A stretch of 64,000 bases of DNA, taken from positions 1 through 64,000 of the forward strand of contig DATKVT010000169.1 of the NCBI GenBank assembly GCA_035529935.1, given 5' to 3'. The stretch comes from Williamwhitmania sp. GTDB taxonomy: Bacteria; Bacteroidota; Bacteroidia; Bacteroidales; Williamwhitmaniaceae. Below, piece by piece: positions 14,064-58,586 of this stretch; the stretch's first letter is position 1, and the number at the start of each line of letters is the position of its first letter. The position numbers were made by a program, and so were the translations under genes. A model generated the notes under the pieces. It was not told the DNA's origin, searched no databases, and was given only the letters and a program-made list of their open reading frames with translations.

Positions 14064-14095
14064 AAAAATGGCCGCGCTTCTGCTGCCATTTTTTA
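14064..14095. terminator. Bidirectional terminator
   Basis: AAAAATGGC / GCCATTTTT perfect 9-bp arms lie between the convergent sensor and DUF2797 genes. The right arm runs into the DUF2797 stop codon. Confidence 0.8.
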
Positions 14096-14902
14096 TTCCG
14101 TTTCAAAAACGACTTCGTAACCGCTAAATGTTCTAAGGTTAATAACCTTTTGCCCATCAAACATAAGGTACTGTCCCCTAATTCCGGTCAAAATACCTTC
14201 CACCGTTTTATCTTTATCAAAGCTGGACGAAACGATCGATGTAGGATACTCCTCTACCGGATAACGAATTTCAAACACGTTGTTATTTGGAAGAAAAAAG
14301 GGAGCATGGTTAGCAGGAAAAAGGATTCGGGCTCGCTCTCGCTGCTCCATCAAGTCAATCCCTTCATGAACAACGCCTAGCAACATTTTTCGCCAATCAG
14401 TCTTATCCGAAAAATTGGCTTTTAAAGCAACCTCAAGCGTTCCGGCAAGGTACCTATTTGGCAACTCGGCTATACAAATGGCACTCGAAGCTCCTTGATC
14501 AATCCATCGAGTTGGCACCTGAGTCTTGCGAGTGACCCCAACTTTTAAGCCCCCTGAAAGTGCGAGATATACATAATGGGGCTGCAGGCAATGCGAGGTT
14601 GCCCACTCCATGCTACGCGCCACTCCTTCGTGTGCTCTACAGAGTTCCGGCCTTAAAATGCATGGCTCCGTTTCTGGGATCGAAATAAAGCAAGGATAGC
14701 AATACCCCTGTCCGTAACTTGTTATTGTAAGCCCCCCACAACTTAGGCACCGGATGGTTCCTGACCAAGAAATTTGAATATGTCGGCCTATTAGTGCATT
14801 CATCTCCACCCTTTTGCCACCAAGGAGCAAACCGTAGCGAACAACTGAACTGCTTTTCTCAATGGATACCTCCATTTTAACTAAACCACCGCTTACCTTC
14901 AT
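14093..14902 (-). CDS. DUF2797 family protein
   Basis: This is about 269 residues from the ATG at 14902. An upstream in-frame ATG at 14935 adds 11 residues, but the family normally begins 'MK.SG.L.KM', as seen here. A CLSCGG...CYPCF zinc-ribbon-like set of cysteines lies at about 53-72. A 'YVYLALSGGLKVGVTRKTQ' segment (about 115-133) followed by an arginine resembles the core of a GIY-YIG nuclease fold. Biochemical function of the family is not established. It is transcribed alone and divergently from the PspC operon. Confidence 0.8.
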   Translation of the reverse strand: MKVSGGLVKMEVSIEKSSSVVRYGLLLGGKRVEMNALIGRHIQISWSGTIRCLSCGGLTITSYGQGYCYPCFISIPETEPCILRPELCRAHEGVARSMEWATSHCLQPHYVYLALSGGLKVGVTRKTQVPTRWIDQGASSAICIAELPNRYLAGTLEVALKANFSDKTDWRKMLLGVVHEGIDLMEQRERARILFPANHAPFFLPNNNVFEIRYPVEEYPTSIVSSSFDKDKTVEGILTGIRGQYLMFDGQKVINLRTFSGYEVVFETE

Positions 14903-14986
14903 ACCCTTGTGTTTTCGGACAATATAGAAAAACATATCACACCTAATCGACTTCGTTCGTCAAAATAATTTCAAAATAACACTACC

Positions 14987-15054
14987 GTGTATTGCATAGT
15001 ATTTATTTTTGAATGTATATTTGCATAACATCTTACAGTGTATAACATAATATC
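14987..15054 (+). promoter_or_regulatory. Promoter and paired operator-like repeats of the PspC-PadR operon
   Basis: TATATTTG at 15016-15023 matches the Bacteroidota -7 element, with TTG at 14992-14994 as the -33 (spacer 21). Two 17-base direct repeats, GTGTATTGCATAGTATT (14987-15003) and GTGTATAACATAATATC (15038-15054), agree at 13 positions. One covers the -33 and the other sits just downstream of the expected transcription start. Their 51-bp spacing is close to five helical turns. They are good candidates for binding by the PadR protein encoded in the operon. Confidence 0.55.
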
Positions 15055-15062
15055 ATAAAACA

Positions 15063-15644
15063 ATGAAAAGCACAATCAACGTTAACATTGGAGGGCAGTC
15101 GTTTGTAGTTGACGAGGATGCCTACCACGTGCTTAGTACCTATCTTGAATCTTGGGAAATAAACCTTTCCAGCGATTCTGGAAAACGGGAAATTTTAGAT
15201 GACATGGAAGCACGTATTGCCGAGCTGTTTTTGGAGCGAGTAAAAATCCCTGGACAGGTGGTTACCCTATCGATAGTTGAAGAGGTAATAACCATTATGG
15301 GGAAGCCCGACCAAGCCGGCTCATTCGATGAGGGACATAGCACCTACACCGGTAAACCATATCGTCGGATGTATCGGGATCCCGATAACCGATTTCTAGG
15401 TGGCGTTTGCTCCGGTATGGGACTTTACTGGAGAGTCGATCCAATTATTTTCAGGCTACTTTTTATACTTGCCTTTTTCACCTTTTTCTCCGGTGTAATT
15501 CTCTACCTCTTACTTTGGATTGCAATTCCCAAGGCTGTTACCCCTGCCCAAAAGTTGGAAATGAGGGGAGAACCCATTACGGTTGAAAACATTAGAAGGG
15601 CAGTAGCCAATGAGTTCAATGAAATTTTTTCAAAAAAGCATTAA
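15063..15644 (+). CDS. PspC-domain membrane protein (short paralogue)
   Basis: This 193-residue protein has an N-terminal soluble region (about 1-90). A PspC domain follows (about 100-160), with the signature 'RMYRDPDNRFLGGVCSGMG', two closely spaced hydrophobic segments and 'LYLLLWIAIPKA'. A C-terminal helix 'VENIRRAVANEFNEI' completes it. PspC proteins sit in the inner membrane and take part in envelope stress sensing in other phyla. It is the first gene of a three-gene unit, 12 bases upstream of the PadR gene. Its N-terminus is clearly related to the larger PspC protein two genes on. Confidence 0.9.
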   Translation: MKSTINVNIGGQSFVVDEDAYHVLSTYLESWEINLSSDSGKREILDDMEARIAELFLERVKIPGQVVTLSIVEEVITIMGKPDQAGSFDEGHSTYTGKPYRRMYRDPDNRFLGGVCSGMGLYWRVDPIIFRLLFILAFFTFFSGVILYLLLWIAIPKAVTPAQKLEMRGEPITVENIRRAVANEFNEIFSKKH

Positions 15645-15656
15645 AAACGTAAAGCC

Positions 15657-15986
15657 ATGAACGCAGAAAACGTTAAGGCCCAAATGCGTAAAGGTGTTTT
15701 GGAGTATTGCATCCTTTCCATTCTTTCCAAACAGGATGCCTATGCAACCTCCATCATACAGCAGCTTAAAGAGGCCGAAATGATAGTAGTAGAAGGAACG
15801 CTTTATCCGCTCCTGACCCGTCAGAAAAACCAAGGGCTACTCAACTATCGATGGGAAGAGAGCACACAAGGGCCACCCCGCAAATACTACTCTCTCACCG
15901 ATAAGGGAAAATATTTTCTAGCGGACCTAGATTCCGCCTGGAGTGAGTTGGTCGAAACTGTCAAAAAAATCAGAGAAAACAAGTAG
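15657..15986 (+). CDS. PadR-family transcriptional regulator
   Basis: This 109-residue winged-helix repressor has typical PadR features: 'LEYCILSILSKQDAYATSIIQQL' (about 12-36), the wing 'VVEGTLYPLLTRQKNQGLL' (about 42-60) and the 'GPPRKYYSLTDKGK' segment (about 70-83). It lies between two PspC genes with gaps of 12 and 6 bases, so it is almost certainly co-transcribed and likely autoregulates the unit. PadR proteins respond to small hydrophobic or antimicrobial compounds in several systems; the ligand here is unknown. Confidence 0.92.
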   Translation: MNAENVKAQMRKGVLEYCILSILSKQDAYATSIIQQLKEAEMIVVEGTLYPLLTRQKNQGLLNYRWEESTQGPPRKYYSLTDKGKYFLADLDSAWSELVETVKKIRENK

Positions 15987-15992
15987 CAAACC

Positions 15993-17609
15993 ATGGAAAA
16001 GGTAATTCATTCAAACATAGGCAGTGTGGCCTTTAAGTTGGACGACGAGGCTTACACCATTCTGAGCAACTACTTTGCCGACATTCGAAAAGAATTTTCC
16101 GGAAAGCCGGGAGCCGAAGAAATTGGAGATGACGTTGAAGCCAGAGTAGCGGAGCTGCTCGGTGAAATGCAGGATAGCAAAGATGCTACCATTACGGCAG
16201 CAATGGCAAAAAAGGTAATCGCCCAGATTGGAACACCAGAACAGATGGAGCCAAGCGATGGTGAGAGTGCAGAAGAAGAACCATCTGAGGGGTTTAGGCG
16301 CTACCCAAAGCGGCTTTTTAGAGATAAAGAGCATAGCGTTTTTGGTGGGGTTTGCTCTGGACTAGGGGTTTACTTCAACTCAGACCCTATTCTTTTCAGG
16401 GTTGTTTTTATTCTTCTCTTTTTGATTCCCCTTTTTAATCATCATTTTCATCTTTTTGGGAACGGCTTTTCTTTGCTCAGCTATTTAGTGCTTTGGGCAA
16501 TTGTTCCAGTTGCAAAAACCCATCGTCAAAAGATGGAGATGCATGGAGATGCGTTCAATATTCACTCCGTGAAATCAAAAGTTGAGGAGGAGTTCAAGGA
16601 GGCATCCGAAAGCCTTAAAAGGAGAACCGGAGGTGGCAACTTTATGAATCGTTTAGGTTCTGTACTTGGTGAAATTTTACTCGTTTTTGCCAAGATACTC
16701 AAGGTGTTCTTCAAAATAATTTTTGGGATATTTGCTGCAATATTCATTATTGTAGGGGTTTCCCTTATTGTCGCAATGTTGGCTATCATGTTTTTTGGCC
16801 CGAGCGATTTCATCACCGACGGTACCATGAACTGCCACTTTTACATTCGTGACCTAGCTTCTGTATTTGTTGGACAATCAGGATTTTGGGGCATTACCAT
16901 TCCCGGCACTCTGCTAATACTAATTCCTACCATTGGTCTAATATACCTTGGCCTTCGTCTTGCATTTAAGTTTAAGGCAAACGATAGGGCCATTGGACTT
17001 TCGGCACTGGTTATTTGGGTAGCAGCACTAGCCGTTGGATTGGGGTATGGGGTATCGGAACTCAACAGCTTTAAGCACGGCGAGTGGGTTAAAACTTCGC
17101 AACAGTTTGAAAATGCAAAGCCAGATACGCTATTTATTGCTTCACCCGATATGGCAAACCTCCCAACATTCTGCAACACTAGGATGGACTTCGACGATGA
17201 TAACGTTAAGATCTACTCCGACGGAAAAAATATCAGGACCCTTGCAAGTCTTAATATCATAAATGGCAAGGACCAACCGCTTAGCGTATCTACCGATCTC
17301 TATTCGAGAGGAATAACTACCACAATGGCGAAACAAAATGCGAGTTCAATTGATGTCTCAACTTCGTTAAGTAGGGATACGCTAACCATTGATCCGGTGT
17401 TAACCTTTAGTAAGGACAAAAAGTGGCGCAACCAGAAGGCAATCATTAACCTCACAATTCCCGAAGGTACTGTAATCCATTTTGACTCCAACCTCTACTC
17501 GCTCCTGCAACAATCAAACAACAGTTTCAACTATGTAGCAGGCTATATGGCAGGTGGATACTATCGCTTGACCGATGATGGGCTACAAAATACAGACACA
17601 AAAAACTAG
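15993..17609 (+). CDS. PspC-domain membrane protein (long, C-terminal adhesin-like region)
   Basis: This 538-residue protein has an N-terminal region homologous to the short PspC protein (about 1-95) and a PspC domain (about 105-180, 'KHSVFGGVCSGLG'-type motif). Three or four further membrane segments follow (about 225-360). The C-terminal extracytoplasmic part (about 380-530) is beta-rich and resembles the right-handed repeats of DUF4097/toast-rack regions. It is the last gene of the PspC-PadR-PspC unit. The layout suggests an inner-membrane stress sensor or scaffold with a periplasmic sensing part, but no PspA or PspB homologue is nearby. Confidence 0.85.
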   Translation: MEKVIHSNIGSVAFKLDDEAYTILSNYFADIRKEFSGKPGAEEIGDDVEARVAELLGEMQDSKDATITAAMAKKVIAQIGTPEQMEPSDGESAEEEPSEGFRRYPKRLFRDKEHSVFGGVCSGLGVYFNSDPILFRVVFILLFLIPLFNHHFHLFGNGFSLLSYLVLWAIVPVAKTHRQKMEMHGDAFNIHSVKSKVEEEFKEASESLKRRTGGGNFMNRLGSVLGEILLVFAKILKVFFKIIFGIFAAIFIIVGVSLIVAMLAIMFFGPSDFITDGTMNCHFYIRDLASVFVGQSGFWGITIPGTLLILIPTIGLIYLGLRLAFKFKANDRAIGLSALVIWVAALAVGLGYGVSELNSFKHGEWVKTSQQFENAKPDTLFIASPDMANLPTFCNTRMDFDDDNVKIYSDGKNIRTLASLNIINGKDQPLSVSTDLYSRGITTTMAKQNASSIDVSTSLSRDTLTIDPVLTFSKDKKWRNQKAIINLTIPEGTVIHFDSNLYSLLQQSNNSFNYVAGYMAGGYYRLTDDGLQNTDTKN

Positions 17610-17626: not shown

Positions 17627-17657
17627 TTGGCACAAAAAAGAAAATTATTACATTTGC
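17627..17657 (+). promoter_or_regulatory. Promoter of tRNA-Gln
   Basis: TTG at 17627-17629 and TACATTTG at 17650-17657 with a 20-base spacer. The tRNA begins 21 bases further on. Confidence 0.65.
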
Positions 17658-17678
17658 ACCGCAATAAAATGCGGCACT

Positions 17679-17748
17679 GACCTATGGTGTAACGGCAGCA
17701 CTACTGATTTTGGTTCAGTTAGCCCAGGTTCGAATCCTGGTAGGTCAA
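17679..17748 (+). tRNA. tRNA-Gln (anticodon TTG)
   Basis: The acceptor stem TGACCTA/TAGGTCA is perfect. The anticodon arm is CTGA-TTTTGGT-TCAG with TTG in the loop (reads CAA), and the T arm is CCAGG-TTCGAAT-CCTGG. The discriminator is A. A terminator follows within 2 bases. Confidence 0.93.
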
Positions 17749-17749
17749 C

Positions 17750-57659: not shown

Positions 57660-58586
57660 TTAGGCTAATTCCTGAAGCGGTTTAAACCCATTCCCTAATA
57701 TTTCCGTTGCATCAAGTACGGTAATAAATGCCGCGTTATCGACCTCTCGAATATAATCGGTTAGCATTGACAACTCCCGTCGGTTGACAACCGTGTAAAT
57801 AATTTTTTTCTCCTCCTTTTTGTATAGCCCAACACCGGGTATATAGGTGCCACCACGATTAATGTCAAAAAGAATTTTTTCGCGAATCTCTTCGTGCTTG
57901 TCTGAGACTATTAGCATACACTTTTCTGCACTAATACCAGCCAAAACGGTGTCTATAACTTTCCCCGTAACAAAAATGGTAATCCATGAATAGAGTGGAA
58001 TTCTCCAGTCGCGGAAGACAGCGAGGCCAAATATTACAATGATTGAATCCACCGTCATAAGGAGTTGTCCGAGCGGCATTTTGGTATACTTCTCCAGTAT
58101 CATTGCAATGATATCAGAACCACCAGAGGTAGCCTTTGATTTAAAAATAAGCCCAAGTCCAAAGCCGATAAGAATGCCTCCAAAGATACTCGACAGAAGT
58201 GGGTCAACATCGCTGTTGGCAATGAGTGGACGTACTGTAAGCCAACTGTAGTCCATAAATACCATGCAAAGCACAAAACCCACAATAGTTTTAACGCCAA
58301 ACTTTGGTCCAAGCACCCTAATTCCTATAATAGTAAGCGGAATATTTAATAAAAAGCCCAAGGTGCCGATGGGGAACCCACCATTTTCTGCACCAAGATC
58401 TGGAAACATTCCTGCAGTGAGGTAATTCACCGCAATACCAATACCGTAAACACCTCCAGGAACAATGTGGTGGGGAGAAATAAAGTAGTTGAAACCCACT
58501 GACATTATGAAGCAACCCAATACAATAAGGCCATATGCCTTAAACCATCGCTTAGAGAAAAGCTTCTCCTTTGTAACGTATGTCAT
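57660..58586 (-). CDS. YitT family membrane protein
   Basis: This 308-residue protein has five or six membrane helices (about 18-225) with 'HHIVPGGVYGIGIAVNYL' and 'SIFGGILIGFGLGLIFKSKATSGGSDIIA' as family marks. A C-terminal DUF2179 domain (about 230-305) resembles the PII-like ferredoxin fold. YitT proteins are predicted transporters of unknown substrate. It lies 49 bases downstream of the U32-family gene in the same direction and may be co-transcribed. Confidence 0.9.
   Translation of the reverse strand: MTYVTKEKLFSKRWFKAYGLIVLGCFIMSVGFNYFISPHHIVPGGVYGIGIAVNYLTAGMFPDLGAENGGFPIGTLGFLLNIPLTIIGIRVLGPKFGVKTIVGFVLCMVFMDYSWLTVRPLIANSDVDPLLSSIFGGILIGFGLGLIFKSKATSGGSDIIAMILEKYTKMPLGQLLMTVDSIIVIFGLAVFRDWRIPLYSWITIFVTGKVIDTVLAGISAEKCMLIVSDKHEEIREKILFDINRGGTYIPGVGLYKKEEKKIIYTVVNRRELSMLTDYIREVDNAAFITVLDATEILGNGFKPLQELA

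Follow-up and report, generated by a model that had tools for sequence, protein, structure and literature searches.

How transcription is controlled in an operon that places a PadR regulator gene between two PspC membrane-protein genes, and whether the repeated DNA at its promoter takes part in that control, was examined in Williamwhitmania sp. (Bacteroidota; Bacteroidales; GenBank assembly GCA_035529935.1). The window, i.e. the whole stretch of DNA that was analysed, comprises positions 1 to 64,000 of contig DATKVT010000169.1 (64,000 nucleotides), and the operon encodes, on its + strand, a short PspC (sPspC), PadR and a long PspC (lPspC). The original prediction for this locus held that two 17-base direct repeats bracket the promoter and serve PadR-mediated looping or roadblock control of an envelope-stress module lacking PspA. 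The results described below indicate that the locus is probably an autoregulated HAAS-PadR envelope-stress operon, with the upstream repeat, here named O1, as the PadR operator over the −33 promoter element.

O1 (14980–15004, + strand) corresponds, in degenerate form, to a 25-bp palindrome of PadR operons, TAGTACTATG-N5-CATAGTACTA, which was assembled from nested dyads found by a de novo inverted-pentamer search and was scored with a position weight matrix. The search covered the zones of 53 representatives (window included) whose PadR proteins are <90% identical to each other. The result showed that the commonest dyad, TACTA-N9-TAGTA, occurred in 11/53 zones compared to 0.00 expected from 20 shuffled sets, in which the maximum for any dyad was 5–7; the only equally frequent unrelated dyads were T runs. 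The matrix (25 columns, symmetric) was trained on a set that excluded the window and L005, a relative from the same genus. The training set of 109 relatives consisted of 29 loci from 60 related genomes, 32 of which have a PadR match (loci were obtained for 30, the window's own included), and of 80 of 489 genome-collection loci, among the matches listed. A held-out set was formed from 115 further loci, of which two duplicated training loci and were removed, leaving 113. When all DNA upstream of PadR was scanned, an O1 of ≥15 bits was detected in 104/109 training loci and 102/113 held-out loci, while none was found in 954,118 reversed positions or in 365,968 positions lying 3′ of the PadR start in the training loci. 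Conservation of the repeat upstream of orthologous operons, which had been proposed as the check on the original prediction, was thus confirmed for O1. Earlier counts of 45/53 and 84/110 came from limited upstream zones, and 21 of the 26 misses of the latter vanish with the full upstream scan; an earlier held-out count of 104/115 became 102/113 once the two duplicates were dropped. In the window, O1 has the top score (21.7 bits) and is the sole site of ≥15 bits, the next site elsewhere scoring 5.9 bits at 58257.

Several observations weigh against this reading of O1. The copy in the window is among the weaker ones, at 21.7 bits compared to up to 36 in relatives. Five of the 109 training loci have no O1 of ≥15 bits: L035 and L090 have short upstream DNA, L018 has Ns, L027 has its operator 5.8 kb upstream (it is visible in L286) and L025 carries a variant. 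No such site was reached in 11/113 held-out loci either; upstream DNA is short in L146, L193 and L231, L208 is N-masked, L195 scores 13.1 bits, L230, L248 and L251 carry variants, and no site was seen in L175, L178 and L237. In addition, the locus counts are not independent events, because the loci share ancestry and the held-out ones belong to an order that also supplied many of the training loci. As for the variants, L025 and L248, which belong to the same family (f11), and in part L251, keep the outer arms and have lost the TG-N5-CA centre; the arms read TAGTACT...AGTACTA in L248 and TAGTACT...CAGTACCA in L025, with the 24-nt distance to the −7 box retained, and in L251 the sequence examined shows no more than the right arm and the −7 box. 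The variants of L025 and L248 possibly represent a co-evolved shift in specificity.

Promoters of Bacteroidota follow a −33/−7 consensus, and the predicted promoter elements were called with it; a scan for sigma-70-type promoters and terminators is uninformative for this phylum. The predicted −7 box of the operon, TATATTTG (Bacteroidota type; 15016–15023, + strand), lies 24 nt from the centre of O1, and this centre is a TTG (14992–14994) inside the first repeat and the predicted −33 element. A second −7-like string, TATTTTTG, is present at 15004. In the relatives, the distance from the O1 centre to the TAnnTTTG −7 box was 22–24 nt in 101/104 training sites and 22–25 nt in 98/102 held-out sites, and the centre trinucleotide was TTG in 84/104 and 78/102 sites, respectively. 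By the general consensus, the operator therefore contains the −33 element, and the proposal of an operator-like repeat over −33 was borne out. The fixed spacing together with the TTG centre matches the expectation for a repressor over −33, not that for an upstream activator. It was also observed that the DNA beyond the TTTG of the −7 box (15016–15036 in the window) is conserved in operator promoters, mostly as TTTGCAT followed by an A-rich stretch, so that the −7 region mimics a weak operator copy at +34.

The distribution of the palindrome over whole genomes was determined by pattern matching. A site with ≤1 mismatch was present at the PadR operon in 28 of the 32 PadR-bearing genomes among the 60 scanned (27 within 1.5 kb, and the other at 5.8 kb upstream within the same run of genes); the PadR-bearing genomes without one were G011, G018, G021 and G037. 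The 60 genomes gave 145 pattern matches, 50 at PadR operons and 95 elsewhere, compared to 104 for the reversed pattern (hand tally), and the palindrome thus shows no detectable excess away from PadR operons in these genomes. In the own genome, the core pattern with ≤1 mismatch gave 39 matches, four of which are O1 and O2 (the downstream site described below) on both strands, compared to 21 for the reversed pattern, an excess that is only partly explained. Of 27 own-genome loci re-scored with the matrix, two are the operon promoter, and the remaining 25 score no higher than 12.4 bits, compared to 21.7 for O1; nine of the listed pattern rows had no locus and lay outside this re-scoring. A wider regulon in the own genome was considered on these scores and none was seen. 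Palindromes of the type TACTTTGAATTGCAAAGTA were noticed on contigs without this PadR operon (G003:C22, G008:C18, G011:C59 and G020:C70); in G008 and G011 they form pairs spaced by about 1 kb.

These data bear on the alternative that PadR is an activator, or that the protein on O1 is another regulator or a sigma factor. The operator, predicted from its sequence, holds a core promoter element, which would suit this alternative. However, sites over −33 are normally repressive, the palindrome tracks the PadR operon with no excess elsewhere in the 60 genomes, the window genome has a single PadR match, and the small PadRs of Listeria repress or bind their own promoters in the portions of the published work covered here. 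The alternative is very unlikely.

The operator stays with the PadR operon whichever gene leads it, be it short PspC, DUF4870, PadR or a MacB-type efflux set. A PspC-matching open reading frame (ORF) precedes PadR in the same ORF run in at least 26/109 relatives; many of the loci are cut short or have a wider gap, so the true number may be higher. In all five flavobacterial loci tested (L051, L060, L066, L070 and L102), the gene before PadR is DUF4870, and in the four whose operator distance was available (L051, L060, L070 and L102) this distance places the operator directly before the DUF4870 gene. In 7/393 genomes, those whose PadR best matches PDB 5h20 (80–92% identity), PadR is the first gene; O1 scores 22–34 bits in six of them and 6.1 bits in the seventh, and two genomes with a PadR 92% and 90% identical to PDB 5h20 have an O1 of 23.5 and 33.5 bits directly before padR. 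In L286 (589–6767), a 31.6-bit operator heads a MacB-type efflux set that ends in a PadR gene and contains genes for an ABC ATPase, two permeases, a membrane-fusion protein and an outer-membrane-factor-like (TolC-like) protein, as named from reading the sequences; it may represent the same switch with an efflux payload. In L287 (1850–2500), and also in L012, a second strong operator copy occurs about 550 bp upstream of the first. It precedes an ORF of 133 aa in which ESWMF-like motifs recur and which is itself directly followed by the gene for short PspC.

The repeats of the window were then compared with the operator. Their best alignment pairs TACCGTGTATTGCATAGTAT (14983–15002) with TACAGTGTATAACATAATAT (15034–15053), with 16/20 matches at a spacing of 51 bp, or 4.86 turns at 10.5 bp per turn. 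The result showed that the 20-mer with 16 matches was equalled in only 2/400 dinucleotide shuffles and is significant, whereas the 17-mer with 13 matches first put forward was equalled in 73/400 and is not; the repeats are real, but not significant in their 17-base form. The second repeat lies between the −7 box and the sPspC ATG at 15063, i.e. in the predicted 5′ leader, and falls in O2 (15031–15055, + strand), a weak operator-like site of 5.3 bits that is 51 bp downstream of O1 and has the third-best score in the window.

The relatives were scanned for the best second site at +40 to +100 from O1. The results showed that this site was exactly at +51 in 19/49 non-redundant training loci (200 shuffles: mean 0.84, maximum 6) and in 14/54 held-out loci, one of which (L190) duplicates a training locus (shuffles: mean 1.13, maximum 6), with offsets 50 and 52 far rarer. 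At three redundancy levels, +51 was found in 12/45, 14/65 and 47/121 loci compared to maxima of 6, 11 and 20 in 300 palindromic column permutations; at the first of these levels (<45% mutual identity), any single offset reached at most 7 in 300 free column permutations. With the threshold set at ≥0 bits and every offset between 40 and 100 allowed, a second site was present in 14/49 training and 9/54 held-out loci; the shuffled sets gave a mean of 0.64 for each group, with maxima of 3 and 5, respectively. As a class, O2 is real but, judged by its scores, weak, and no such site stands out in the remaining loci, so the claim of a second phased site holds for a subset of loci.

That PadR dimers on O1 and O2 touch and bend the intervening 51 bp into a repression loop would fit the recurrence of the exact spacing, which is near five turns. 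However, a second site of ≥0 bits occurs in only the minority of loci given above, and the strongest operator pairs are spaced 47, 47, 47, 48 and 50 bp apart, up to 0.4 turn off 51 (the four loci at 47–48 bp are probably one clade). DNA of about 50 bp is moreover stiff and short for a loop, and to our knowledge no small PadR protein forms loops. Because O2 is often undetectable and the strong pairs are 47–48 or 50 bp apart, looping is disfavoured and highly improbable; as the main mechanism it was rejected, O2 being seemingly dispensable.

Downstream block or cooperative co-occupancy by PadR is possible. In its full form, PadR dimers on O1 and O2 would bind side by side over the stretch from −33 to about +25, and O2 would act either on early elongation or via dimer contacts in multiples of 17 bp. 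The excess at +51 (3 × 17) among loci of <45% identity exceeds both permutation maxima, the TAGTACTA arms of O1 themselves lie 17 bp apart, and the training loci have a minor peak at +68 (4/49). Furthermore, in loci whose −7 box is at 23 nt and whose second site scores ≥−10 bits, O2 is at 51 in four and at 50 in one. On the other side, the mean profile of 20 loci with the box at 23 nt has no peak at +51, the +68 peak was not seen in the held-out loci (one site of ≥0 bits), the leader of PadR-first operons is so short that a +51 site would overlap the start codon, and the exact spacing could reflect shared descent. A tiling in 17-bp steps based on peaks at +17 and +34 was rejected: the ±17 signal is self-similarity of the arms, and the +34 signal follows the −7 box, shifting to 33 in loci with a box distance of 23 nt. 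The peaks that survive this check are +51 and, in training loci only, +68. Overall, this side-by-side binding or roadblock is rather unlikely. A still broader version, in which the PadR family forms a cooperative dimer block in a 17-bp register (O1 at 0, O2 at +51, sometimes +68) from −33 into the leader, and membrane HAAS-PspC proteins strip it by direct contact as a switch without histidine kinase in much of Bacteroidota, is distinctly improbable.

It is conceivable, though doubtful, that O2 is non-functional in the window genome, as a decayed site or a chance resemblance. Its score is low, and the chance site at 58257 is higher; however, O2 sits exactly at the offset enriched in relatives, and L005 keeps partial similarity at +51 (−2.1 bits). 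In the window genome O2 is only a candidate functional site; in a subset of genomes, the most probable role of such a site is a second block, either cooperative or downstream, on top of the one expected at O1.

The three genes downstream of this promoter were characterized by ORF analysis, Pfam and searches of the own assembly (4.04 Mb, 233 contigs, 97.7% complete). sPspC (15063–15644, 193 aa), PadR (15657–15986, 109 aa) and lPspC (15993–17609, 538 aa) are all on the + strand, with gaps of 12 nt between sPspC and PadR and 6 nt between PadR and lPspC. PadR, a predicted repressor, scores 71 bits against a cut-off of 27 (PF03551) and by its length belongs to the small PadR-2 type, and the flanking proteins score 73 and 56.3 bits for PspC (PF04024) against a cut-off of 25. 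In lPspC, PspC is followed by LiaI-LiaF-TM_PspC and a Toast-rack C-terminus. The only PadR match in the assembly is this protein, the only PspC matches are sPspC and lPspC (E ≤ 0.001), and no PspA/IM30 match was found in this 97.7% complete genome by a search that finds matches in 9/14 control genomes. The gene order with PadR between two PspC genes and the absence of PspA are thus right, and the notion of an envelope-stress module lacking PspA is supported; no match was found in the window genome to the PspA/IM30 that marks a classical Psp system. Named relatives of the window PadR come from Bacteroidales, Rikenellaceae, Flavobacteriaceae and other Bacteroidota. The protein matches 41 distinct PDB sequences at E ≤ 0.001, the closest being PDB 5h20 (106 residues, E 1.4e-44). 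This entry is presumably Bacteroides fragilis PadR BF2549, reportedly the subject of Lee, Kim and Hong in 2017.

The two PspC proteins had been predicted to share a novel N-terminal region. The comparison showed that their N-termini are indeed homologous (31/84 identical, 37%, E 2e-18), but the region is not novel, since it is HAAS-like; in the window this assignment is sub-threshold and rests on orthologues, motif and model. Among 20 sPspC sequences, 13 match HAAS at E ≤ 0.01 (best E 1.8e-8), and two of 10 examined singly exceed the HAAS cut-off (33.2 and 29.8 bits). An AlphaFold2 model from 20 sequences (predicted local distance difference test score 78; predicted template modelling score only 0.52) contains a beta-hairpin and helices at 18–34, 41–59 and 69–79, with a break at 80–82 and a turn at 83–85 in the third-helix region. 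A GKP motif occupies 80–82, with G80 invariant and P82 in ≥90% of the 20 sequences, and lPspC has GTP in its corresponding N-terminus. In this model, at its score of 0.52, three consecutive helices with a GxP at the break of the third are present, which, the hairpin apart, agrees with the description of HAAS. The points that weigh against the assignment are that sPspC itself scores 17.7 bits for HAAS (PF22564), under the cut-off of 27, that lPspC has no HAAS match in Pfam, and that the HAAS search of the own genome gave nothing at E ≤ 0.1. Structural proof was also sought, and nothing usable came of it: Foldseek gave no significant match to solved structures (HAAS structure 2O3L), structural realignment with VIA-align topped at Z 7.3, within the tool's stated chance range, and no PDB sequence matched the region at E ≤ 1.

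Taken together, the preferred reading of O1 as the PadR operator of an autoregulated operon draws on gene order, domains, conservation of O1, its fixed place in the promoter, the lack of excess elsewhere and the enrichment at +51, all of them sequence features. A PadR dimer would bind the palindrome O1, the centre of which also serves as the −33 element, and would thereby exclude RNA polymerase from the best predicted promoter of the operon; a weaker dimer site at O2, past the predicted start, may reinforce the block in the window genome and in some of the relatives. On the inner side of the membrane, the HAAS-like domains of both PspC proteins would sense the state of the envelope via PspC, LiaI-LiaF-TM and Toast-rack, and would either bind PadR or let it go. 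Under stress, PadR would leave O1, and more PspC and PadR would be made. PadR as the binder of O1, repression, HAAS-PadR contact and the signal are proposed rather than observed here, with binding, repression and the HAAS relay modelled on the available parts of PMC11237479 and PMC6624303.

Two neighbouring features were noted. A DUF2797 gene (14093–14935, 280 bits) is divergent from the operon, and O1 might also act on it because the 127-bp intergenic region is common to both. A tRNA-Gln gene (ttg; 17678–17749) lies directly 3′ of the operon and has a TACATTTG box of its own at 17649; its promoter (17649–17669) carries TTTGCACCGCAA.

The operon was compared with known systems, as far as the accessible parts of each article go. 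Listeria LftR, a dimer of PadR-2 type, binds a partly palindromic site in its own promoter with a dissociation constant of 6.2 nM (PMC6457526); unlike the window PadR, it is tied to drug transport, has a ligand cavity and is described there without a PspC or HAAS partner. Inactivation of Listeria LltR, which is called autoregulatory, raises the lltR-lmo0600(DUF1700)-lmo0601(DUF4097) operon about 100–150-fold (PMC6624303). This operon likewise combines a PadR repressor with HAAS-type (DUF1700) and Toastrack-type (DUF4097) genes; in contrast to the window, no PspC is described, PadR comes first, and phylum and promoter type differ. A possible link of PspC to beta-lactam stress in Bacteroidota has been described, with no mention of PadR in the portion seen (PMC9239133), and a Zobellia PadR gene and its downstream neighbour are induced on six polysaccharides, this PadR not being identified there as of the window type (PMC5613140). 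No published description of an O1-type operator was found in searches of the open-licence PMC literature, going by listings and with the BF2549 paper outside that scope. A HAAS-PadR-like winged helix-turn-helix dyad with PspC and Toastrack was proposed from gene neighbourhoods in 2024 as an alternative to two-component signalling (PMC11237479), and target DNA or an operator is absent from the parts of that article covered. A widely conserved operator overlapping −33 makes this proposal directly testable in Bacteroidota and provides a sequence handle for finding genes under the HAAS-PadR switch. Given its HAAS-like N-terminal regions and, as in that proposal, a neighbouring standalone PadR gene with no pspA nearby, the module of the window fits the HAAS-PadR-PspC-Toastrack class as described in those parts of PMC11237479, from whose systems it differs in that two PspC proteins carry a HAAS-like N-terminus, the model adds a beta-hairpin at the N-terminal end, and a candidate operator is identified.

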